Translations under genes and position numbers: made by a program
Notes under the pieces: model-generated
What the model was told of the DNA's origin: nothing
The model's input: the letters and a program-made list of their open reading frames with translations, nothing else
Databases searched by the model: none
In this document: one piece after another, positions 1,978-20,509 of the stretch
Layout of the letters: each line of letters opens with the position of its first letter
Position numbering within the stretch: the first letter of the stretch is position 1
Virus record (IMG/VR): IMGVR_UViG_3300025085_000234
Coordinates: 1 to 21,464 of that record
From: a virus
DNA: 21,464 nt
Strand: one strand, 5' to 3'

Positions 1978-2285
1978 ATATTGAAAAACAGATTAAAGAT
2001 TTAACCGATGCAATGATCCGATTAACAGAGGTTATGGAAGTAAAACGGGAAGGTAATTCTATAACTGTTTCTGTACCTAAACCTGATCCTGAGGATCCTT
2101 TTGATGAAAGTAATCATACAGTTATTACAGCATCTCATGTTAAAGAATTAGCAAAAGAAAAAATGAGATCGGGAATTGATCGTAAAACTATCAAGGATAT
2201 GGTAACTAAATTGAAGGCAGATTCAATAGCCGATCTTGATTCTGAGGGTCTTAAGACTCTACATAAACAACTGGGGAAACTATGA
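1974..2285 (+). CDS. Small acidic/basic helical protein upstream of the DUF2800 nuclease
   Basis: A 103-aa protein with ribosome site AAGGAG before the ATG. Residues 1-25 are a predicted helix, residues 34-52 are Pro/Asp-rich (PKPDPEDPFDE), and residues 55-103 are helical and Lys-rich (VKELAKEKMRSGIDRKTIK). No known motif is seen. The stop codon interlocks with the DUF2800 start (ATGA), so the two are translated together and it may be a partner of that nuclease or of the SSB. Confidence 0.65.
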   Translation: MNIEKQIKDLTDAMIRLTEVMEVKREGNSITVSVPKPDPEDPFDESNHTVITASHVKELAKEKMRSGIDRKTIKDMVTKLKADSIADLDSEGLKTLHKQLGKL

Positions 2286-3406
2286 TTGCACATGCTAAAC
2301 TCTCTGCAAGTGGATCGAGTCGGTGGCTTAATTGCCCCGGCTCAGTTCATGCAGAATCAATATATCCTTCTGATGGAGAAGGATCCGAATTTGCTATTGA
2401 AGGTTCTATGGCTCATGAATTAGCCGATTTATGTTTAAAGAAGAACAGAGATGCTGATTGGTATTTAGGCAAAATTGTTTATAAAAGAACAGTAGAAAAA
2501 GAGATGGTAGAGTATGTTCAGGAGTACGTAGATTATGTTAGAAGCTTCGAAAATAGATTTACCACTCTATATACTGAAGAGCGAGTAAGCTTTGCTCATT
2601 TAGTACCTGATGGGTTTGGTACATTAGACGCAGCAGTTGTAGATTCTGATAAAGGCATTTGTCATATATTTGATTTGAAATATGGTAAGGGTATAAGAGT
2701 AGATGCATTTGAAAATACTCAAGCACAATTGTATGCAACAGGTATGGAAAATGATTTAGCATTCCTACATGATATAAAAACCTTTAGATTACATATTGTT
2801 CAACCTCGTTTATTCCATTTTTCTGAATGGGATATATCAAAAGAGGATTTATTATTATTTGGTAAGTATGTAACGGAAAGAGCTCAATTAGCATTAAGCC
2901 CTGATGCTCAAAGAATACCAGGTAAAAAACAATGCCAATGGTGTAAAGCCAAAGGTGATTGTAAAGCATTATTAGATTTTACTACTGCTACCATAACTGC
3001 CGAATTTGATGACTTAGAGAGCATCGATGTGGAAACATTAAGTGAAGATGAAAAGAAGTCCATACTGGACAATAAAGGCCTTTTCGTATCATTTTTAAAT
3101 GCAGTAGAAGCTTCCATATTTAATCAATTAGGTACAGGTAAAGAATTCCCAGGTTACAAACTAGTAGAGGGAAGAGCAATAAGGAAATGGAATTCCTCTG
3201 CAGAAAAAGCATTAATAGACAAATTAGGAGAAGATGCTTATCTTAAACGTATGATAGGTATAACTGAAGCAGAGAAAAGATTAGGTAAAGATTTCACTAA
3301 GGATCTAACCGATAAACCACAAGGTAAAACTGTATTAGCGCCTTTAAGTGATAAAAGACAAGCTTTAGATATACAAAGTGTAGAAGAGATATTTGATGAA
3401 ATATAA
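2282..3406 (+). CDS. DUF2800 RecB/Cas4-like Fe-S nuclease
   Basis: This 374-aa protein matches the DUF2800 family, a PD-(D/E)XK nuclease group related to RecB and Cas4. Visible motifs: H45 in the first helix (EGSMAHELAD), G-T-L-D116, the core D131-L-K133 strand, and Q147-x3-Y151. Four cysteines that can hold an iron-sulphur cluster are present: C18 (RWLNCPG) and C218, C221, C227 (CQWCKAKGDC), as in AddB and Cas4. The likely role is a DNA exonuclease that makes single strands for phage recombination or replication. In many phages it stands directly before DUF2815, exactly as here, so the pair probably acts as an exonuclease plus ssDNA-binding module. The nuclease activity is inferred from motifs. 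Confidence 0.88.
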   Translation: MIAHAKLSASGSSRWLNCPGSVHAESIYPSDGEGSEFAIEGSMAHELADLCLKKNRDADWYLGKIVYKRTVEKEMVEYVQEYVDYVRSFENRFTTLYTEERVSFAHLVPDGFGTLDAAVVDSDKGICHIFDLKYGKGIRVDAFENTQAQLYATGMENDLAFLHDIKTFRLHIVQPRLFHFSEWDISKEDLLLFGKYVTERAQLALSPDAQRIPGKKQCQWCKAKGDCKALLDFTTATITAEFDDLESIDVETLSEDEKKSILDNKGLFVSFLNAVEASIFNQLGTGKEFPGYKLVEGRAIRKWNSSAEKALIDKLGEDAYLKRMIGITEAEKRLGKDFTKDLTDKPQGKTVLAPLSDKRQALDIQSVEEIFDEI

Positions 3407-3435
3407 TTTATTATTTGTCAATTATATGATATACT
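3399..3435 (+). promoter_or_regulatory. Promoter for the ssDNA-binding protein unit (family copy)
   Basis: AAATATAATTTATT (3399-3412) ends in TTTATT as -35, then a 17-base spacer, then TATACT (3430-3435) preceded by TGA (3427-3429), an extended -10. It matches the other four promoters in layout and in the AAATATA block (about 11 of 14 bases). It overlaps the last codons of the DUF2800 gene. Predicted transcript start is near 3441, so the RNA carries the hairpin and ribozyme that follow. Confidence 0.6.
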
Positions 3436-3450
3436 TCACCATAAAAAGTT

Positions 3451-3489
3451 TTCATCCAGGTTTGACTTGCACCTGGTTCCGAAAAGCAG
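3451..3489 (+). repeat. Degenerate partial copy of the hammerhead stem I and core
   Basis: TTCATCCAGG here (3451-3460) is repeated exactly at 3542-3551, and CCTGG plus a TC-GA--AG pattern follows in both places. The upstream copy has CCGAAAAG where the downstream copy has the catalytic CTGATGAG, so it cannot be an active core. Its CCTGG (3472-3476) can also pair with CCAGG of the real stem I, so it may compete with folding. Confidence 0.5.
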
Positions 3490-3502
3490 GTCTTATTAGT
3501 AA

Positions 3503-3588
3503 GACGAAAAGAGCCCTCAGCCTCCACAAGTACGAGGGCTCTTCATCCAGGATTGGTAACCTGGGTCTGATGAGTCAGCCAAACCAAT
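3503..3588 (+). ncRNA. Type II hammerhead self-cleaving ribozyme
   Basis: All hammerhead core elements are present in type II order. GAAA at 3506-3509 opens stem III (3509-3518 with 3534-3543, ten pairs including the required A15.1-U16.1). The cleavage nucleotide is C3544. Stem I is 3545-3551 with 3560-3566 (seven pairs, one G-U). CTGATGA follows at 3567-3573. Stem II is G574-C505, T575-A504, C576-G503, including the required G10.1-C11.1 pair. Loop I ATTGGT (3552-3557) is complementary to ACCAAT (3583-3588), a six-pair pseudoknot of the kind described in bacterial and phage hammerheads. Predicted cleavage is between 3544 and 3545, about 70 bases before the SSB start. Stem II is short, and GTCTTA/TAAGAC (3490-3505) forms a competing hairpin that may make folding switchable. 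Confidence 0.85.
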
Positions 3589-3614
3589 TTAATATAACCA
3601 TTTAAGGAGTTAAA

Positions 3615-4115
3615 ATGAGTAAAATGATGTTAAAAAATGTTCGTCTATCTTTCCCTTCTATCTTCCGCAAAGCAGAATTTGATGGAAACGAAGGTAAATT
3701 TGAAGGAACCTTTCTAATTGATAAAAAAGACAAAAAGACTAAAGCAATGCTCGATGAAGCAATCGATAAAGCTGTTGCTGAAGCTAAAGTTAGTATCCCA
3801 TCGGATAAGCGTTGCTTAAAAGATGGCGATGATTCTCAATATGATGGGTACGCCGACCATTGGTCTTTAAAAGCTGCAAGTTCTAAAAGACCAACGGTAA
3901 TCGATAGAGATAAAACACCTTTAGTCGAAGAAGATGAAAGAATTTACCCAGGCTGTTATGTAAATGCTATTATCGATCTTTGGATCCAAAATAATAAATA
4001 TGGAAAACGTGTAAATGCAAATTTATATGGAGTTCAATTTGTTAAAGATGGAGAATCATGGGGTATGGGACAAATCGATGTCTCTGATGACTTCTCTGAT
4101 TTAGACGATCTATGA
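3615..4115 (+). CDS. DUF2815 single-stranded-DNA-binding protein
   Basis: A 166-aa protein of the DUF2815 family, which is regarded as phage ssDNA-binding/OB-fold protein. Typical features are the opening LKNVRLSFPSIFRKAEF, the FEGTFLIDKKDKKT strand region (about 32-47), and the motif YPGCYVNAIIDLWIQNNKYGKRVNANLYGVQF (115-146; quoted here only by its ends in the family sense). It ends in an acidic tail (DDFSDLDDL), as SSBs do to recruit partners. The ribosome site AAGGAG lies 6 bases before the ATG. It sits between the nuclease and the polymerase, has its own promoter and ribozyme leader, and a terminator begins right after it, which suits a protein needed in large amounts. Its stop interlocks with the polymerase start. 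Confidence 0.85.
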   Translation: MSKMMLKNVRLSFPSIFRKAEFDGNEGKFEGTFLIDKKDKKTKAMLDEAIDKAVAEAKVSIPSDKRCLKDGDDSQYDGYADHWSLKAASSKRPTVIDRDKTPLVEEDERIYPGCYVNAIIDLWIQNNKYGKRVNANLYGVQFVKDGESWGMGQIDVSDDFSDLDDL

Positions 4116-5926
4116 TTAACTACGAAGCCCCTTCGGGGGCTTTTATCGTTCTTGATTGTGAAGTATATCCCAATTATTTCTTAGCAGCATTTAAAAATAT
4201 TGAAAATCAAAATGTTGTAACCATAGAATCTAAAGGTGAAGACCAAGGATTAACTAAAGAGCAAATAAATAAGCTTTATAGTATTATCATTAAGAAAACA
4301 ACTTTTGGATTCAATAGCAACAAATATGACATCCCTATCATACTATTTGCTTTAACTGGTAGGCCTTGTAAAGATATTCATAAATTGTCAGATAGAATAA
4401 TTAATGAGAATATACCAGGATGGAAATCGTTAAAAGATTTTAATTTATTCCTACCTAAAAATATGTCTCATTTTGATATATCTGAACCAGCACCAGGTGT
4501 AAGAGTCAGCCTCAAATTATATGGTGGAAGATTACATTCTAAAAGGCTTCAAGATTTACCTATAGAGCCAGGTACAATGCTAACAGAAAAAGAGATGGAA
4601 GATACTCTAACCTATTGTATAAATGATTTAGATACAACTATAGACTTATATAAAAAGATTGAAGATAGGATTAAACTTCGATATGAAATGTCTAATCAAT
4701 ATGGTTTAGATTTAAGATCTAAATCTGATGCACAAATAGCAGAAGCTGTTATTAAGTCCGTGCTTAGTAAAAAAATGTTAAACAAAAGAATTAATAGACC
4801 CCGAATAGAAAGTTCCACTACATTCAAATATGAAATCCCTAGCTATATTAAGTTTGATAGTAAAGAATTAAATGAAGCTTTAGAATTTATTCGTAATCAT
4901 AGATTTGAATTAGATGGTAAGGGGTCAATACAACTACCTAAAGAATTAAAATCTATGAAGATTAATCTTGGTAAATCAACTTATCAATTAGGTATAGGTG
5001 GAATTCATTCTACTGAAAAAAAGCAAACGATTATACCTAAACCGGGAACAATATTGTGTGAAAGAGATGTAGTATCTTATTACCCTGCTATAATACTTAA
5101 TTTAGGATTATACCCCCGGCATTTGGGTAATAAATTTTTAGAAGTTTATAAAGGGATTGTGGATAGGAGAATTGAAGCAAAAAAGTCCGGTAATAAGTTA
5201 ATAAATGATTCATTAAAAGTTGTAATAAATGGGTCTTTTGGTAAATTAGGATCCAAATATTCAGTTTTATATTCCCCTGATTTAATGATGGCCGTAACAT
5301 TAACAGGCCAATTAGCTTTATTAATGCTAATTGAAAAATTAGAACAAAAAGGGATAAATGTTATTTCCGCAAATACGGATGGATTTGTATCTATTTTAGA
5401 CAAAGATAAGTATGAAGATTTCGATGATATGTGTTTTTGTTGGGAAATAGATACAGGATTTGAATTAGAAGAAACAAGATATCAAGCTTTATATTCCCGA
5501 GATGTTAATAATTATTTAGCTGTTACTGAAAAAGGAGTTAAAGGTAAAGGTATTTTCACTATAAATCAAATTAGCAAAAATCCTACTGCTACAATATGTG
5601 TAAATGCAGCAATGGATTATCTGACTAAGAATAAACCCATAGATGAAACTATTAAATCCTGTAAAGATATTAAGGAATTCCTAACTGTTAGATCCGTTAC
5701 AGGTGGAGCAGTTTGGGGTGATGATTATTTAGGAAGAGTCGTGAGATGGATATATTCAAATAAAGGTCAACAAATTAGCTATAAGAAAAATGGTAATAAA
5801 GTACCTAAGTCTGATAACTCTAGACCCATTATGGAATTAGAAGAATTTCCTAATGATATTGATTACGATCGCTATATAAATGAATCAAAACAGATTTTAG
5901 AAGATATTGGTTATTCTGAGATTTAA
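4112..5926 (+). CDS. Family B DNA polymerase with 3'-5' exonuclease
   Basis: A compact 604-aa replicative polymerase. Exonuclease motifs: Exo I D15-C-E17, Exo II N68...D73 (GFNSNKYD), Exo III Y168-x3-D172. Polymerase motifs: A at D319-VV-S322-YYP (family B DxxSLYPSII), B at K369-VVI-N373-GSFG, and C at A-N421-T-D423-G. Motif C has Asn where most family B enzymes have the first Asp of DTD; similar NTDG forms occur in phage enzymes, so this is probably not inactivating. The start is interlocked with the DUF2815 stop (ATGA) and has no ribosome site of its own, so translation depends on coupling. A terminator hairpin lies in codons 5-11. The enzyme is shorter than cellular PolB (about 780 aa or more), lacking an N-terminal domain. 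Confidence 0.93.
   Translation: MINYEAPSGAFIVLDCEVYPNYFLAAFKNIENQNVVTIESKGEDQGLTKEQINKLYSIIIKKTTFGFNSNKYDIPIILFALTGRPCKDIHKLSDRIINENIPGWKSLKDFNLFLPKNMSHFDISEPAPGVRVSLKLYGGRLHSKRLQDLPIEPGTMLTEKEMEDTLTYCINDLDTTIDLYKKIEDRIKLRYEMSNQYGLDLRSKSDAQIAEAVIKSVLSKKMLNKRINRPRIESSTTFKYEIPSYIKFDSKELNEALEFIRNHRFELDGKGSIQLPKELKSMKINLGKSTYQLGIGGIHSTEKKQTIIPKPGTILCERDVVSYYPAIILNLGLYPRHLGNKFLEVYKGIVDRRIEAKKSGNKLINDSLKVVINGSFGKLGSKYSVLYSPDLMMAVTLTGQLALLMLIEKLEQKGINVISANTDGFVSILDKDKYEDFDDMCFCWEIDTGFELEETRYQALYSRDVNNYLAVTEKGVKGKGIFTINQISKNPTATICVNAAMDYLTKNKPIDETIKSCKDIKEFLTVRSVTGGAVWGDDYLGRVVRWIYSNKGQQISYKKNGNKVPKSDNSRPIMELEEFPNDIDYDRYINESKQILEDIGYSEI
4125..4144 (+). terminator. Intrinsic terminator inside the start of the polymerase gene
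   Basis: AAGCCCC (4125-4131), TTCG loop (4132-4135), GGGGCTT (4136-4142) with TTTT at 4141-4144: a seven-pair stem, five of them GC, with a C(UUCG)G tetraloop and a short U-run. It lies 9 bases after the DUF2815 stop but is read as codons E-A-P-S-G-A-F of the polymerase. It should end part of the SSB transcripts and attenuate polymerase expression. Translating ribosomes entering the polymerase frame would disrupt it, which offers coupling-dependent read-through. Confidence 0.7.
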
Positions 5927-8266: not shown

Positions 8267-8349
8267 TGGACCAATTCATTTGGGATTTACTTAAGCTTCT
8301 CGTCGCTTGTATCATCATTGCTGAAATACTTTACCGGAAGGAGAAATAA
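8266..8349 (+). CDS. 27-aa single-pass membrane micro-protein
   Basis: A tiny frame coupled to the ThyA-like gene (TAATG) and ending 1 base before the AsnB-like ATG, so it fills the gap exactly. The product has an amphipathic start (MDQFIWDLL), a hydrophobic core (KLLVACIIIAEIL) and a basic end (YRKEK): a one-pass inner-membrane peptide, N-terminus out or in unknown. Its last codons carry the ribosome site (GGAGG-like AAGGAG) of the next gene, so it may in part serve as a translated leader. Confidence 0.5.
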   Translation: MDQFIWDLLKLLVACIIIAEILYRKEK

Positions 8350-8350
8350 A

Positions 8351-9691
8351 ATGTGTGGATTTTTAATATATAAAACAGAAAAAAGATTAGGGAATTTAAA
8401 AGTAGAAGAATTAAAGAATAGTCTTTCCCATAGAGGTATTGATATTTCTGTTCATAATGAACCAGGTGCATTTGTTATACATAACATGTTACCTATGACA
8501 AACTTAGTAGATTATAAACAACCTTTAATAAATCCCTACAAATGGAAGGGGATGATAGGTGCATTTACTGGGGAGATATTTAATTGGAAACAAATAAAAG
8601 AAAAATATGATTTAGATTGTAATAATGATTCTGAATTATTTGCAGATATTATGTATGGGCAAAAATCAAAAGAAAAAGTTCATGAAATGGATGGGTTTTG
8701 GAATTTCGGAGCTATACACAATGATAATATAGTAGGGGTGGTAGATTATTTATCTCAAAAACCTTTGTATTATAGAACAGATATGGAAGCACTTTGTTCA
8801 GAGCCTTATCCTTTAACTATGTTAGGTCCTGTAACAAAAGATAATATATTCTTTTCATCTATACCTAAATTTGGATATGATACTGAGGGTAATACCCCTT
8901 GGAATGAAATTAAACAAATCCCAGCTGGATCCTATTATGAGAATGGTAAAATTCATAAATATTGGAATTGGAATTTAGTAGAAGATGTACCTTTAAGAGC
9001 AGGTATATCCCGATCAGTTAGTGCAAGAATGGGAGGGGAAAGAGCCCCTGCAATTCTTTTATCTGGGGGGTTGGATAGTGCAATAATTTATCATTATGCT
9101 AAAAAAATAAATCCAGATATAAAAGTATTCCATATAGAAAATAGAGAAAATAAATATATTCAACTTCTAACTAAGAAATATGAAAAAATTAATTTATCAG
9201 ATTATACAATTAGTACAGAAGAAGCTATAAGAAGGAATCAAACCCCAGTAGATTTAGGTAGTGTACTACCCCAGGCACAATTAGCTGAGGCATTAAAAGA
9301 TAAAGGTATTCATGTAGTTTTATCTGGTGATGGATCCGATGAATTATTTTCAGGTTATGATAGAAATCTTTATTATGATAGTCAACATTCTGATATATTC
9401 CAAGAATTACCTTATTATCATAATCCAAGATTAGATCGTATTATGATGGGGTCCGTTGTAGAGCTTAGAGCCCCTTTTATGGCATCATATATAGTTAAAT
9501 ATGCTTTATCTTTAGATTTTGAAGCAAGAAGATATAAAAAGATTTTAAAAGAATTATATAAACATGCCCTTCCTACAGGTATTATATTAAGAGAAAAATT
9601 GGCTTTAAAATCAGAAAAAATAAGAAAGAAAAAGCAAAGAGATAATACTATAGAAAATATAAAGATATTTGAAAAATTATTTAGCCTATGA
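8351..9691 (+). CDS. Asparagine synthetase B-like glutamine amidotransferase
   Basis: A 446-aa protein (start at the ATG that puts C2 after Met; an in-frame ATA/ATG further upstream would bury it). The N-terminal class II glutaminase has C2, S-H-R28-G and G-E-I-F-N. E. coli N74 of the oxyanion hole is Thr here (T73), which may weaken glutamine use. The C-terminal synthetase domain has the ATP pyrophosphatase loop S238-GG-L-D-S, then S-G-D-G-S-D-E-L-F-S-G-Y (325-336) and the L-R-A-P-F substrate-site strand. It is shorter than E. coli AsnB (about 554 aa). It could make Asn for phage protein synthesis or amidate another acid, possibly a modified nucleotide given its ThyA-like and deaminase neighbours; the second is speculation. 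Confidence 0.85.
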   Translation: MCGFLIYKTEKRLGNLKVEELKNSLSHRGIDISVHNEPGAFVIHNMLPMTNLVDYKQPLINPYKWKGMIGAFTGEIFNWKQIKEKYDLDCNNDSELFADIMYGQKSKEKVHEMDGFWNFGAIHNDNIVGVVDYLSQKPLYYRTDMEALCSEPYPLTMLGPVTKDNIFFSSIPKFGYDTEGNTPWNEIKQIPAGSYYENGKIHKYWNWNLVEDVPLRAGISRSVSARMGGERAPAILLSGGLDSAIIYHYAKKINPDIKVFHIENRENKYIQLLTKKYEKINLSDYTISTEEAIRRNQTPVDLGSVLPQAQLAEALKDKGIHVVLSGDGSDELFSGYDRNLYYDSQHSDIFQELPYYHNPRLDRIMMGSVVELRAPFMASYIVKYALSLDFEARRYKKILKELYKHALPTGIILREKLALKSEKIRKKKQRDNTIENIKIFEKLFSL

Positions 9692-15011: not shown

Positions 15012-15500
15012 TTAATTAGCTAATGGATTATCTAAGGCTCTTTGTAGCTTACTAGTAAGCCTTTCTTCTAATTCTTTAATTTTTCTATCTGTATCTGAAT
15101 ATAAAGCATCCCTTCTTGCATCAAACCTTTCAGAAGCATTATCAATAGTTTCATTTATTTTATCTTGTGAACCATTAACTTTATCTTCTAATCTTTCCAT
15201 AAGTGCTTCTTGCCTAGCTAAGTCATCCTTTAAATCATTCTTAATTGTTCTCGTATAGTCTTTAGCTTGTTCTACTGACTCACTTACACTTACTAATGTT
15301 TCCTCTATGACTGCTATATTCTGTTCTATTCCAGTTAAATCTGGGGCAATATAAGAATTTATTTTAGCTTCCATTTCAAGATAACGGTTCCATATTTCAA
15401 ATCCACCCCAAAGACCACCTATAATAGTACCTACCAAAGGTACTATAAGTAATAACTTACTTCCCCCTACTTTAATACCACCGTATTCTATTTCTGCCAT
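15012..15500 (-). CDS. Membrane-anchored long coiled-coil protein
   Basis: A 162-aa protein. Residues 1-14 (MAEIEYGGIKVGGS) are cytoplasmic, a membrane helix spans about 15-34 (LLLIVPLVGTIIGGLWGG), and residues 55-160 are one long heptad-patterned helix rich in Glu/Lys/Arg. The arrangement is that of an i-spanin or a cell-envelope tether. Near-identical N-termini occur in uncharacterised marine phage proteins; the function is unknown. It overlaps the upstream gene by 13 bases. Confidence 0.55.
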   Translation of the reverse strand: MAEIEYGGIKVGGSKLLLIVPLVGTIIGGLWGGFEIWNRYLEMEAKINSYIAPDLTGIEQNIAVIEETLVSVSESVEQAKDYTRTIKNDLKDDLARQEALMERLEDKVNGSQDKINETIDNASERFDARRDALYSDTDRKIKELEERLTSKLQRALDNPLAN

Positions 15501-17083
15501 TGTAGATCCACTAATTTATTATGAAGTAATTCATTTGCTAATCCATTCCTTAACCCTTTTAGATTTTCTGGTATAGTTTTATTCAGATATATATCCCTAT
15601 CTGAATAAAAAACTCCATCCACCATAGATGAATTATAACTTGAAAACCCTAATTGAAAATTTAATAATGCTAAAATGTAGGATTGGATTTCCTTTTGAGC
15701 TTCTAATGAAGCTGCTTCCCCCATTTCCTTAGCTAAGTTATTTAATTTGTTAGTAATAATTTCCTTCATTTTTTTCTTTTTAGATTCTTTTCTATCTTTT
15801 TCACTAACTTCTGGTTTTGCTTCAGCTAATCTTTCAGTCTGTTCTTCATTAGGTTCTTCAATGCTTGACTCATCTTCTGGTCCCTCTGCTTCTGGCTCTG
15901 CTTCAGGTTCTTCTTCCATTTCTTCAAGTTCTTCCTGTTCATCTTCTACCTCCTCTATAGGTTCCTCTATAGGTTCCTCTAAAATTTCCTCAATTTCTTG
16001 TTCTAATTCTTCTATAATTTCTTCTTGTGTAATTTCTTCAAATTCAATTTCAGGTATTACTTCTTCAAAAACTTCAATTAATTCTTCAAAATTTAAAATC
16101 TCAGGTATATCTATTTCAATAAATATTTCTGGGGGAATTAAAACAAATATTTCTTCCTCTTCTTCCTCCATTTCTAATTCTTCTTCAGCTATTGCTGCCT
16201 CATATCCTGGACAATATATGGAATAAGTAGGATTATATTCACATTGCTGATCCAAATATGCTGTTTCAAAATTAGGACAAGCATTACTCCATAAACTATC
16301 TAATGAACATTGTTGGTTAAAATAAGCTTCACTATAACCCACACAGCCAGAATCATAGAGAGGATTAAGACCACATTGTTGCTCATAATAAGCCTCCGCA
16401 TAAGTTTCTGGGTAATACAAACAACTCAAATGACTTTCTGGTATAACACTGCATATACTTTCTCCCCCTCCGATTACTACTGGGTCATCTTCTGCACTAT
16501 TCCAAAAGAGTGCTCCATCTTGAGTAGGATGGTTATAGAACCATTGTTCATACTCCCCAGCACTTAAATCACCAACTACTGCTACTGTAACACTATGATT
16601 ATTTATTTGAACTTGTTCATAATTTATTGAAATATTACCAAGTGGAAAAATTGTTAAATCAAAAGTATTACTGGTATTAGTATTATAATACTCTGCTAAT
16701 CCCTCCCACATATATTTTTGGTAAGTTTCATCTCCTTGGGTATAAAACTTCCCAACACCTGTATCTATTAAGTCAGTATGGAAAGGCATAATAGTATAAT
16801 TGAATCTTACACCTGTCGCACCATTTGCAAAGTCTTGACCATGACAACACAACCCATCATGGATATATCCGCTACCTGGAACAGTAAGAGGATCTAAAAA
16901 TCCCACTACACCATTTGAAAACATAAAGCTAGTGACATAGCTATTACCATAAAAAGGAAAGGTAAAGTCCAATGGTACTTCCACCCATCCGTCGTCGGTA
17001 ATCGTATGCTCTATTATAGGGGCTTCAGATAACGAGGATAGCGAGAAGCATAACCCCAAGAATGCCGTTAGTAAGATTTGCAA
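15488..17083 (-). CDS. Secreted nidogen-like protein with Cys repeats and Glu-rich stalk
   Basis: A 531-aa protein. Residues 1-20 are a signal peptide. Residues 33-200 resemble a nidogen (NIDO) extracellular domain: V-P-L-D-F-T-F-P-F-Y-G then F-S-N-G-V-V-G-F, known from adhesive and viral surface proteins. Residues 224-291 are three 22-24-residue repeats, each with QQC-x(9-10)-C, then a fourth partial one. Residues 299-420 are extremely Glu/Pro-rich (a stalk or disordered linker). Residues 420-531 hold a charged helical and compact C-terminal domain (DRDIYLNK then PENLKGLRNGLA). It is probably displayed on the virion or delivered to the envelope; similar architectures occur in marine phage late regions. 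Its signal peptide codons overlap the preceding gene. Confidence 0.65.
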   Translation of the reverse strand: MQILLTAFLGLCFSLSSLSEAPIIEHTITDDGWVEVPLDFTFPFYGNSYVTSFMFSNGVVGFLDPLTVPGSGYIHDGLCCHGQDFANGATGVRFNYTIMPFHTDLIDTGVGKFYTQGDETYQKYMWEGLAEYYNTNTSNTFDLTIFPLGNISINYEQVQINNHSVTVAVVGDLSAGEYEQWFYNHPTQDGALFWNSAEDDPVVIGGGESICSVIPESHLSCLYYPETYAEAYYEQQCGLNPLYDSGCVGYSEAYFNQQCSLDSLWSNACPNFETAYLDQQCEYNPTYSIYCPGYEAAIAEEELEMEEEEEEIFVLIPPEIFIEIDIPEILNFEELIEVFEEVIPEIEFEEITQEEIIEELEQEIEEILEEPIEEPIEEVEDEQEELEEMEEEPEAEPEAEGPEDESSIEEPNEEQTERLAEAKPEVSEKDRKESKKKKMKEIITNKLNNLAKEMGEAASLEAQKEIQSYILALLNFQLGFSSYNSSMVDGVFYSDRDIYLNKTIPENLKGLRNGLANELLHNKLVDLQWQK

Positions 17084-17633: not shown

Positions 17634-18209
17634 TCATCTAAACTTTGCTCCCTGTATCCAACCTATTAATGACATTCGTTTACCTTTTGTAACTGGTGTA
17701 ACTCTATGTTCTAAAAAAGATGGAAAAACAATTACTGTACCTTTTTTCTTAATGTTTATTTTATCTTGTTTACTAAAGTCTCCATTCCAAATTTCAAAAT
17801 TGCCTCCTTTGTAATCATTAGGTTCAGACAACTGAACAACTACTGAAAGTTTTCTATGACACATTTTTTCAGTTTTCCAATTTGTATCTATATGCCAATC
17901 ATAAAAATCCTTGTTATCTGAATTGTACGTAGTAAATTGACAAGTTTCAACTGTGTTTATGTCAAAACCAAATGCTTCATTATTAGCTTGTACACCATAA
18001 CGATATATTAAATCATAAATTTCAGGATATTTTCCTCTACTTGGGAAACTTATTTTTGACTTTCTTATTTTTTTATTAACCCTAACATCAACACCATTAT
18101 CTTGACCAATTAAACCATCGATAGTTTTAGATTCTTGACCTGCTTGTACTATCTTCTCAATAAAAGGCTCTTTAAGGTGTTGAGTGTAATAAAACCAATT
18201 ATATTTCAT
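17634..18209 (-). CDS. 2OG-Fe(II) oxygenase, PKHD/prolyl hydroxylase-like
   Basis: A 191-aa double-stranded beta-helix dioxygenase. Iron ligands H106-x-D108 (YDWHIDTNW) and H168 (FPSFLEHRV), with R178 for 2-oxoglutarate (GKRMSLIGW). The layout matches the PKHD-type hydroxylases such as PiuC/YbiX and phage relatives that hydroxylate protein residues or modified bases; the substrate is unknown. It is the last gene of a five-oxygenase run and follows the frameshifted gene by 1 base. Confidence 0.85.
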   Translation of the reverse strand: MKYNWFYYTQHLKEPFIEKIVQAGQESKTIDGLIGQDNGVDVRVNKKIRKSKISFPSRGKYPEIYDLIYRYGVQANNEAFGFDINTVETCQFTTYNSDNKDFYDWHIDTNWKTEKMCHRKLSVVVQLSEPNDYKGGNFEIWNGDFSKQDKINIKKKGTVIVFPSFLEHRVTPVTKGKRMSLIGWIQGAKFR

Positions 18210-18210
18210 A

Positions 18211-18716
18211 TTAAAAATAATTTAGATTAATGTTAACTCTTCTATCTTGATTACTTGTTGTTGTACTTGCATGAGGTTTAGTTGTATCAAGAATAACTGC
18301 CCTATTAGCAACACTTTCTATTTTTGTTCCATCTTCTAAAATAGTTGCACCATGTTAATATGAAATACACACCCTTTTTGTTTGTATTCATAATCTGTGT
18401 GTAATTCGTGTTCTATAATCTTAGGTGTCCTATTAAACAAATTTACTTTTATTCTAATTAATGCTTTAATGTTTAATTTGTTAAGCAAAGGTTGCAATGT
18501 TTTCCACCCTTCTTTAGTTGTAAACACTTCATTTGAGTCATACATAACATGACAGAAATAACCTTTATATTTAAGATTTTGATTTGTTCTTAAATCGTCT
18601 TTAAAATAAGTTATAGAAGGTTGAAAATACCAAGCAAACTTGTTACTCATCATTAGTTCTTGTAAAACATTAAAATCTTTTTTGTCTAAAAAATTGTCAA
18701 TAATTTTATAATCCAT
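18211..18716 (-). pseudogene. Frameshifted 2OG-Fe(II) oxygenase (paralogue of the gene at 20003-20509)
   Basis: The frame from ATG 18716 gives about 121 codons ending ...FHIN, then runs to a TAG at 18336-18338. In the shifted frame from 18351 the coding continues (GATILEDGTKIESVANRAV, then KPHAS and RRVNINLNYF) to the TAA at 18211-18213. Together they align end to end with the 168-aa intact paralogue, and the catalytic HTD (frame 1), His and Arg (frame 2) are all kept. The gap near 18352-18354 fits a loss of about 7 bases (or any 1-base net shift), because two or three residues are missing. The cause may be recent inactivation, a sequencing/assembly error, or programmed shifting; no slippery site is obvious. 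Confidence 0.8.
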
Positions 18717-19284
18717 AGGTATATCCTGAATCAAACAGACCGACATCACCTTTGGGCATTATATTAAAAGCCAATGAATATCTTGTAGCATCTCCATCCC
18801 ACTCACGTATTTTATGTTCTGTTCGTGCAGGAAATATTAATAGTGTACCTTTGGTTGGTTTGTATTGGCATGATAATGAATTTAACAAATTATTCTCAAC
18901 TGGCTCTACAAAAATAGCAGGTGCTTGTTTTTCTAAAATTATTTCACAATTGTCTTGTAAATAAAAAACTGCTGTCCACCATGCATTACAATGAATATGT
19001 TGAATTTGTTCTTGCTTTCTCCCTACTTTGCTAAACCATGACCTACTTATTTCAATGTCACAATCATATTTCATTGCACCATGTATAAATTCTTTTGCTT
19101 TAGCAATAAATTGTTTTTTTAATTTAGGACTCTTATCTAATATTTTATGACTATAAGTAGAGTTATCTCTAAAATCTGAATAATCTAAACTACGAAGTAA
19201 TTCAATTACTGGTTCTTCTAACTCAGTTGCTTGTATGTTTGCAACAACTGTAGAAAAAATTGCATCTATGCCTTTTAGACTCAT
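18706..19284 (-). CDS. 2OG-Fe(II) oxygenase-like protein (TIGR02466/Oxy_5 type), copy B
   Basis: A 192-aa protein with the H96-x-H98 pair (QHIHCNAWW), H157 (FPARTEHKI) and R168 (TRYSLAFN). The HxH rather than HxD pattern is characteristic of the TIGR02466 (2OG-FeII_Oxy_5) group, so it is probably active. It is a clear paralogue of the gene at 19435 along its full length (GID-IFST-VANIQ at the start, FNIMPKG at the end). It overlaps the small gene before it (ATGA) and the frameshifted oxygenase after it (11 bases). Confidence 0.8.
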   Translation of the reverse strand: MSLKGIDAIFSTVVANIQATELEEPVIELLRSLDYSDFRDNSTYSHKILDKSPKLKKQFIAKAKEFIHGAMKYDCDIEISRSWFSKVGRKQEQIQHIHCNAWWTAVFYLQDNCEIILEKQAPAIFVEPVENNLLNSLSCQYKPTKGTLLIFPARTEHKIREWDGDATRYSLAFNIMPKGDVGLFDSGYTYGL

Positions 19285-19460
19285 CTAAATATATCTCCTC
19301 TTTTATATTTAATGTACCTTTGTGATTTGATTTTGTTTATAACTTTTCTTATGTTAGTAGTTTTTTTTGCTTGTATACAAATTTCTTCCCATTCTGATTG
19401 ACTAACTTCATCATCCCATGCTAAAGATTTTTTTTTAGTAAACCCATGATGAGTCACCAT
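19281..19460 (-). CDS. 59-aa basic protein between the two oxygenase copies
   Basis: A frame from ATG 19460 to TGA 19283-19281 gives 59 aa: MVTHHGFTKKKSLAWDDE at the start, a WEEICIQAKK helix in the middle and a basic end (KIKSQRYIKYKRGDIF). A GGAAAGGTAGG ribosome-site-like stretch lies just before the start. It starts within the end of the preceding oxygenase gene (overlap 26 bases) and ends by ATGA overlap with the next. Many small phage proteins near 2OG oxygenases have this size, but no family is known. It was too short for routine ORF calling. Confidence 0.6.
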   Translation of the reverse strand: MVTHHGFTKKKSLAWDDEVSQSEWEEICIQAKKTTNIRKVINKIKSQRYIKYKRGDIFR

Positions 19461-20010
19461 AACCTACCTTTCCTTTTGGAATAAAATTGAATGCTAATGA
19501 AAATCTAACTCTTTCTTTATCATTATGTGGAAGTATTTGATGTTCAACTCCTGATGGAAAAACTAACAATGTTCCTACGTTTGGTTCAAAGGTAACTTCT
19601 TTAGCATTTAATAAAGTTTGTTTTTCAGGAATGACAAACATTTGTTGATATGTTCTATCGTTTAATTGTATTCGACAATCTTCTTCAAAATAAAAACAAC
19701 AACTCCACCAAGAGTTACAATGCCTATGAGGATTTAAAAACTGACCATCCCATATTCTAGTAAACCAAGAAGTTGTCATTTGTATTTCACAACCCATGTG
19801 CATATATTCTTGTAAAAACTGTTGTACTTCTTTTGTAAATGCTTTTTTTAATTTGTCAGTTAAAACATCATGACTGATAGTGCAATTACCACTAAAGTCT
19901 TTGTAGTTGTACGATGACAATAGTTTTTCTACTGGATCAACTAATTCAAGCAACTGTATATTAGCTACAGGAGTTGAAAATAAACTGTCTATTCCTACTA
20001 AATTATCCAT
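19435..20010 (-). CDS. 2OG-Fe(II) oxygenase-like protein (TIGR02466/Oxy_5 type), copy A
   Basis: A 191-aa paralogue of the gene at 18706. Metal residues H95-x-H97 (PHRHCNSWW) and H157 (FPSGVEHQI), with R169 (VRFSLAFN). The HxH pair is again in the place of HxD. It starts by an 8-base overlap with the preceding 2OG gene's stop. The pair (HxD-type followed by Oxy_5 type) is duplicated in the window with reversed order in copy B, which points to duplication with rearrangement or separate acquisition. Confidence 0.8.
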   Translation of the reverse strand: MDNLVGIDSLFSTPVANIQLLELVDPVEKLLSSYNYKDFSGNCTISHDVLTDKLKKAFTKEVQQFLQEYMHMGCEIQMTTSWFTRIWDGQFLNPHRHCNSWWSCCFYFEEDCRIQLNDRTYQQMFVIPEKQTLLNAKEVTFEPNVGTLLVFPSGVEHQILPHNDKERVRFSLAFNFIPKGKVGYGDSSWVY

Positions 20011-20509
20011 GATAATACATAAAATTTATAACCACTCTTGATTTTGTATTAGTACAAGATGTTCCACGATGAATTAAATTAGCAGGAAATGTTAACATTC
20101 TATTAGCAACACTTTCTACCTTAGTACCATCAGCAAATTCTGTAAATCCATCATTATGATTAATATAGAAAATTGATGTTGTCCAATCTTCTAGTTTTTT
20201 TTTATCTAATTCACTTTCATCTACATGAAAACCATTTTTGATAATAGTTGAAGTTTTTGTAAGTAGATTTGCTTTTACTCTGAGCAAAGAATAAGCACTT
20301 AGCTTATCTAACAAAGGTTGTAGTAATTCAATACTATTTGATTGTGGTTGATTGTATCTATAAAAAGTATGACAAAATTGAAAATACTCGTTCTTGTCTG
20401 TTGTGTAATCTATAGTGGGATTATAAAACCAAGGTATTTCAGAGCCTAGCAATTGCTTTTGAATGTTTTTAAAAACTTTCTTATCTAAAAAGTTATCTGT
20501 AACTTGCAT
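20003..20509 (-). CDS. 2OG-Fe(II) oxygenase (HxD type), copy A
   Basis: A 168-aa dioxygenase with H95-V-D97 (NGFHVDESE), H147 (FPANLIHRG) and R158 (KSRVVINFM). It starts M-Q-V-T-D-N-F-L-D-K-K, matching the frameshifted gene (IIDNFLDKKDF). A strong ribosome site AAGGAGGAT precedes the start. Homologues are frequent in marine T4-like phages near tail genes; the substrate (tail protein, host protein or DNA base) is unknown. Confidence 0.8.
   Translation of the reverse strand: MQVTDNFLDKKVFKNIQKQLLGSEIPWFYNPTIDYTTDKNEYFQFCHTFYRYNQPQSNSIELLQPLLDKLSAYSLLRVKANLLTKTSTIIKNGFHVDESELDKKKLEDWTTSIFYINHNDGFTEFADGTKVESVANRMLTFPANLIHRGTSCTNTKSRVVINFMYYHG

Follow-up and report, generated by a model that had tools for sequence, protein, structure and literature searches.

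The role of hammerhead ribozymes in bacteria and phages is an open question, and the genes that flank prophage hammerheads have been reported not to be constant (PMC3088659). The locus considered here raises this question in a form where one ribozyme is bound to one gene of known function: what does a self-cleaving RNA do in front of a phage gene for a single-stranded DNA-binding protein (SSB)? It lies in a 21,464-base virus record (IMG/VR record IMGVR_UViG_3300025085_000234, referred to at its whole length as the window), where a type II hammerhead precedes an SSB gene of the DUF2815 family. We conclude that the hammerhead is genuine and conserved, that it belongs to a known class, and that its tie to one particular gene is a setting we did not find described in the open literature. 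It occupies the same place across a diverse phage group, which also offers natural ribozyme-free relatives for comparison.

A type II hammerhead precedes the SSB gene

An earlier, sequence-only reading of the window had named each core element of the hammerhead, and these were borne out base by base, including the cut site. The ribozyme, together with its loop I/tail pseudoknot, spans 3503-3588 on the plus strand. Its open stem II has three pairs (G3503-C3576, A3504-U3575 and C3505-G3574, the last being the G10.1-C11.1 pair that closes the stem) and is followed by GAAA at 3506-3509. Stem III comprises ten pairs (3509-3518/3534-3543), with A15.1-U16.1 at 3509-3543, and H17 is C3544, which places the predicted cut between C3544 and A3545. 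Stem I has seven pairs (3545-3551/3560-3566), the CUGAUGA core lies at 3567-3573, and AUUGGU in loop I (3552-3557) is able to form six pairs with ACCAAU at 3583-3588. The covariance-model check that the sequence-only reading had called for also returned a match above the gathering score, with cmscan placing the Rfam type II hammerhead family RF02276 at 3502-3584(+) with 46.7 bits (E 6.8e-07), where the gathering score is 37, the sole Rfam match within the window.

The identity of the gene downstream, which the same reading had given as a DUF2815 SSB, is also supported. The open reading frame (ORF) at 3615-4115 (+) encodes a gp2.5-like protein of 166 aa (DUF2815/Enc34_ssDNA-bd) with an acidic C-terminus (DDFSDLDDL), which matches Pfam PF10991 (E 2.1e-36, 125.6 bits against a cut-off of 26) and phrog_112 and is homologous to a solved SSB (PDB 5odj, 2e-21).

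The ribozyme is conserved among relatives

Relatives of the SSB protein in IMG/VR were inspected for the sequence 5' of the start codon, and a type II hammerhead was found before DUF2815 in 18 distinct loci from uncultured phage sequences (the window, L005-L007, L009-L017, L056, L089, L098, L115 and L119). The distance from the CTGANGA core to the SSB start codon is 31-52 nucleotides (nt) in all 18. Where it was tried, the Rfam gathering cut-off recovers only copies identical to the window's, most relatives scoring below it. Conservation was examined in an alignment of 13 sequences (A3), in which the interior of stem III was trimmed to a fixed length for alignment. Here 91.6% of pair cells are standard, whereas shuffles reach 76.6% and slid controls 28-43%, and 49 cells are changed on both sides, compared with 13.6 in shuffles. 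Eight of the nine stem III pairs show such two-sided changes, the sequence diverging widely while the pairing is kept, so that the type II permutation is accompanied by covariation in its stems. The pseudoknot between loop I and the tail shows little covariation in relatives, its UUGG/CCAA being mostly invariant.

A covariance model built from A3 (R1) detects loci outside its building set (L013 at 79.8 bits, L056 at 52.9, L115 and L118 at 51.7, L119 at 45.7), and relatives match it at 45.7-84.4 bits. CUGANGA, GAAA, A15.1-U16.1 and an H17 other than G are kept in relatives, with C or A at N7 in L098, L115 and L119. Sequence-pattern hits that R1 scores at 21-23 bits with E values of 0.1-0.3 (L052, L054, L059, L064, L070, L071 and L077) are not credible; of the three inspected, L052 and L059 resemble coding sequence and L064 lacks stem III. 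A hairpin beside stem II in the window (GTCTTA/TAAGAC) was considered as a conserved switch and rejected, being absent from L005 and L006.

The ribozyme is tied to the SSB gene

Since loci found through the protein are chosen by it, IMG/VR was also scanned gene-blind with the core pattern TCTGATGANTTAGCCAA. This returned 28 stretches, 10 of which fold as hammerheads, and every one of these 10 lies directly 5' of DUF2815. The core scan also brought in L056, whose SSB was too diverged for the prior protein searches. Among the 14 records searched whole, many of which are fragments, each holds exactly one hammerhead match and no second was found in any of them.

The ribozyme stays with the SSB start codon and not with the upstream gene, which in the window is a DUF2800 exonuclease gene, even where ORFs have been inserted between the two. 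In L014, L016 and L017 a small ORF separates the ribozyme from DUF2800, with promoter-like TTTACA...TATAAT staying behind DUF2800, and L098 has several ORFs in this position. The slot itself is variable, differing ORFs of mostly unknown function being inserted in L014, L016, L017, L098 and L056. On a tree of 53 DUF2815 proteins, resolved only in part at its deeper forks, the ribozyme label requires 2 changes compared with 15.4 in shuffles, a clustering that is inflated by near-copies and drawn from public viral contigs only. One clade of 13 rows (support 99/94) is entirely ribozyme-positive.

A shared SSB transcription unit to which the ribozyme has been added

The sequence-only reading had placed a promoter before the hammerhead, and a wider scan lists a candidate at 3407-3435 (+), TTTATT-17-TATACT with an extended -10 (TGATATACT), which a simple promoter scan did not list. 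RNA would be expected to start near 3441-3443, about 60 nt before the ribozyme. Taken alone this candidate is weak (44 of 300 shuffles are equally good); what lends it credibility is a better match conserved at this position in relatives, with 0-1 of 300 shuffles as good in L010-L013. In the window, L005-L007 and L009-L013, an extended -10 (TGnTATAAT or TGnTATACT) comes after the end of DUF2800, lying 70-75 nt before GAAA in the window, L005 and L006 and 10-15 nt before it in L007 and L009-L013. Other versions are found in L115 (TTTACT-16-TATAAT, 9 nt before GAAA) and L089 (TTTACA-17-TATAAT, 32 nt before it), and promoter-like sequence thus stands 9-32 nt 5' of the ribozyme in 8 of the 18 loci (L007, L009-L013, L115 and L089).

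Downstream of the SSB gene, an intrinsic terminator-like hairpin (GAAGCCCC-TTCG-GGGGCTTT) is present at 4124-4143 (+), one of three such hairpins found in the region against 0.8 expected. It falls in the first codons of the polymerase ORF; the earlier reading had regarded the pairing of a hammerhead with a replication SSB cassette and such a coding-region terminator as new. A hairpin after DUF2815 is kept in relatives with and without the ribozyme, but is intergenic there; only in the window does it sit inside coding sequence, since there the start codon of the polymerase and the stop codon of SSB overlap (ATGA). We therefore rejected the coding-region terminator as a designed feature, whilst the hairpin itself is supported mainly by its conservation. 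By eye, isolate phages that lack the ribozyme also show promoter-like sequence between DUF2815 and the preceding gene, and most show a hairpin after DUF2815. Given that promoter and terminator flank DUF2815 without a ribozyme too, the hammerhead is best seen as added to an SSB transcription unit that is common in this gene module: the self-contained unit that had been proposed does enclose the hammerhead, but also exists without it.

A pseudoknot in the leader of three relatives

An H-type pseudoknot that the sequence-only reading did not mention is found in the window, L005 and L006, where it stands after the promoter and ahead of the ribozyme. In the window it covers 3456-3492 (+), with S1 at 3456-3461/3471-3476 and S2 at 3464-3470/3486-3492. 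The shared geometry is of six pairs in S1, an L1 of 1-2 nt, seven to eight pairs in S2, no L2 and an L3 of nine nt. The window has CCAGGT/ACCTGG as S1, L005 and L006 both have GGGGGT/ACCCTT, and S2 differs in all three (GACTTGC/GCAGGTC, GCTCTGT/ACAGAGC and GTTCCGT/ACGGAAC). Of 400 shuffles, 0, 1 and 1 reached the pseudoknot's score. The same place and geometry combined with two-sided changes would be hard to get by chance, though the comparison is of three sequences only. The leader gave only chance-level matches to Rfam families, and the pseudoknot is absent from all other ribozyme loci checked. It might be a regulatory RNA in its own right. One further feature is confined to the window: the leader strand CATCCAGG...ACCTGG (3453-3476) nearly repeats stem I of the ribozyme (3544-3565), and strand exchange between the leader pseudoknot and stem I is possible there.

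A probable natural 5'-end-processing element

That the ribozyme is kept before the SSB start codon in 18 loci makes it very likely that it sets the front end of the SSB mRNA. We consider the hammerhead to be a natural 5'-end-processing element for the phage SSB message, at a probability of about 0.6. From its structure, its conservation and its position relative to promoter-like sequence and gene, we infer that it cleaves, that it does so in vivo, and that message stability or translation is affected.

In such a scheme, RNA polymerase would start just 3' of the DUF2800 gene and transcribe a short leader, then the hammerhead and SSB, as far as the terminator. The hammerhead would fold and cut after C3544, releasing a leader (about 100 nt and non-coding in the window) with a 2',3'-cyclic phosphate. 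The SSB mRNA would then have a uniform start, a 5'-OH on stem I with the loop I pseudoknot, tens of nt before the start codon, and read-through transcripts from upstream would be trimmed to the same 5' end. The predicted 5' untranslated region (UTR) of the cleaved message (3545-3614, +), derived from the cut site and the sequence, would run from the 5'-OH through stem I and the loop I pseudoknot into an A/U-rich tract with AAGGAG. Bacterial decay pathways that depend on the mRNA 5' end are hindered by a 5'-OH and by a stem located there. A structured 5'-OH start, with no 5' phosphate for such decay, should yield a stable, context-independent message, which would suit SSB as a protein required in stoichiometric amounts and would resemble the effect of the RiboJ insulator on reporter genes. 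The abundant SSB message that the earlier reading expected from cleavage would be plausible.

Several observations weigh against this interpretation. Pseudoknot-free folding prefers a rival structure by about 3.5 kcal/mol; minimum-energy folding alone fails to show the ribozyme, because pseudoknots are not modelled. Position 10.1-11.1 is U.U in L010, L013, L014 and L017, and L015 and L016 lack one base there; ribozymes altered in either way may be slow. The promoters are consensus matches, and many DUF2815 phages have no ribozyme.

The sequence-only reading had cleavage detach the SSB mRNA from the exonuclease RNA. On this view the main task of the ribozyme is to part SSB RNA from the coding RNA upstream, each half then being degraded and translated on its own, as Perreault et al. 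(PMC3088659) suggest for prophage hammerheads. The small ORF between promoter-like site and ribozyme in L014, L016 and L017 and the several ORFs in L098 fit this. It does not fit loci where the promoter abuts the ribozyme, and with promoter-like sequence 9-32 nt upstream in at least eight loci the main transcript would carry no upstream gene. With a promoter between exonuclease gene and ribozyme, the unit's transcript would start a few nt before the ribozyme in L007, L010 and L115 and about 60 nt before it in the window, so cleavage would shed a non-coding leader and little else; in the window there would be no exonuclease RNA to detach except on read-through. Cleavage would thus mostly trim the leader, and would part coding RNAs only in read-through transcripts or at loci with an intervening ORF, which leaves operon splitting as an unlikely primary role.

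Autoregulation in the manner of T4 gene 32, in which surplus SSB would bind the 5' pseudoknot and A/U-rich ribosome-binding site (RBS) and repress its own translation, seems more doubtful still. The cleaved leader would be laid out like the gp32 operator, with an A/U-rich RBS tract after a pseudoknot, and in the 40 nt before DUF2815 start codons at 29 loci TAAA/TTAAA are mildly enriched, TAAA standing at 2.24 compared with 1.53 when shuffled and 1.37 before other AT-rich ORFs. However, type II hammerheads usually carry a loop I pseudoknot in any case, so the layout is a lead and not a test; DUF2815 is gp2.5-like and not gp32-like; and we found no RNA-binding data for the family, the Enc34 paper (PMC5686142) making no mention of RNA. 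It is similarly improbable, if conceivable, that self-cleavage creates a gp32-like operator for SSB self-control, with the leader pseudoknot tuning cleavage or sensing free SSB. Less likely again is a switch in which a ligand, a protein or the leader pseudoknot turns cleavage on and off: the pseudoknot covaries in three relatives, and the repeat of stem I in the window's S1 strand (CATCCAGG) makes strand exchange conceivable, but other ribozyme loci checked have no pseudoknot and the repeat is confined to the window. We give least credence to the idea that a sequence carrying the ribozyme arrived in front of SSB as a selfish or neutral passenger and has been retained with no role; patchy presence outside the 13-row clade would agree with this, but strong covariation, a near-fixed core, a fixed place and one copy per record speak against it. 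Whichever applies, the role of a 5' UTR hammerhead in phage mRNA, be it 5'-OH stability, insulation or autoregulation, becomes directly testable at this locus.

Comparison with known systems

The SSB-linked ribozymes share with RF02276 the permuted architecture (loops I and III closed, stem II open), the core and the loop I/tail pseudoknot. They differ in their constant location, the 5' UTR of a single gene family that has a promoter of its own, and in having A/U-rich members below the Rfam cut-off, some with U.U at 10.1-11.1, and one subclade with a leader pseudoknot. We found no SSB-linked hammerhead reported in the open literature, most subscription papers lying outside that coverage. RiboJ is an engineered hammerhead and not a type II phage element. 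It resembles the present case in standing between promoter and RBS and defining a uniform mRNA 5' end, and in E. coli it roughly doubles transcript levels and increases protein two- to tenfold (PMC6206723); the SSB-linked hammerhead may be its natural counterpart.

The nearest natural precedent is the hammerhead (HHphage) of the haloviruses HF1 and HF2, which lies 13 nt before a DNA helicase gene and for which a transcript 5' end was mapped within three nt of the cut (PMC3088659). Here too the gene is a phage replication gene, the first on its transcript, with the hammerhead in its 5' UTR, but these are archaeal viruses with a variant core and another gene, and it is described only in two highly related viruses. 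The gene 32 operator of T4 and RB69 combines a 5'-terminal pseudoknot with a less structured tract holding UUAAA/UAAA repeats and the RBS (PMC535899). Like the present leaders it places a pseudoknot and A/U-rich RBS before a phage SSB gene, but it has no ribozyme and serves another SSB family, and SSB binding is only putative here. The mild TAAA/TTAAA enrichment of DUF2815 leaders, with four TTAAA in that of L034, is reminiscent of the T4 gp32 operator repeats.

The Enc34 SSB (PMC5686142; PDB 5odj) belongs to the same DUF2815 family. Isolates examined share a DUF2800-DUF2815-DNA polymerase-VRR-NUC-helicase neighbourhood, but no hammerhead was found in the eight isolate regions examined, Enc34 itself not being among them.

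Neighbouring genes and other features of the window

The DUF2800 exonuclease gene 5' of the SSB unit is at 2282-3406 (+) (PF10926, 1.7e-86; phrog_69 exonuclease, 5.6e-104). The DNA polymerase gene that follows the SSB gene, at 4112-5926 (+), matches phrog_1252 (4.2e-197) and is family-B-like by homologue annotation, the isolates nearest to it being annotated DNA polymerase B. By SSB protein the nearest isolate is Pseudoalteromonas phage PHS21 (60%), and two scans of genome contigs, made as a prophage-based host search, found no DUF2815 relative. Elsewhere in the early/replication region, 8318-9691 (+) encodes a phage asparagine synthase-like protein with GATase and Asn_synthase domains. At 15488-17083 (-), a 531-aa ORF with Cys-containing repeats and a long region that is rich in Glu and contains Pro/Ile may be a virion protein. 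The stretch 17634-20509 (-) contains two sets of similar ORFs (18706-19284/19435-20010 and 18336-18749/20003-20509), and by eye ORFs in this stretch resemble duplicated 2-oxoglutarate/Fe(II) dioxygenase-like proteins.

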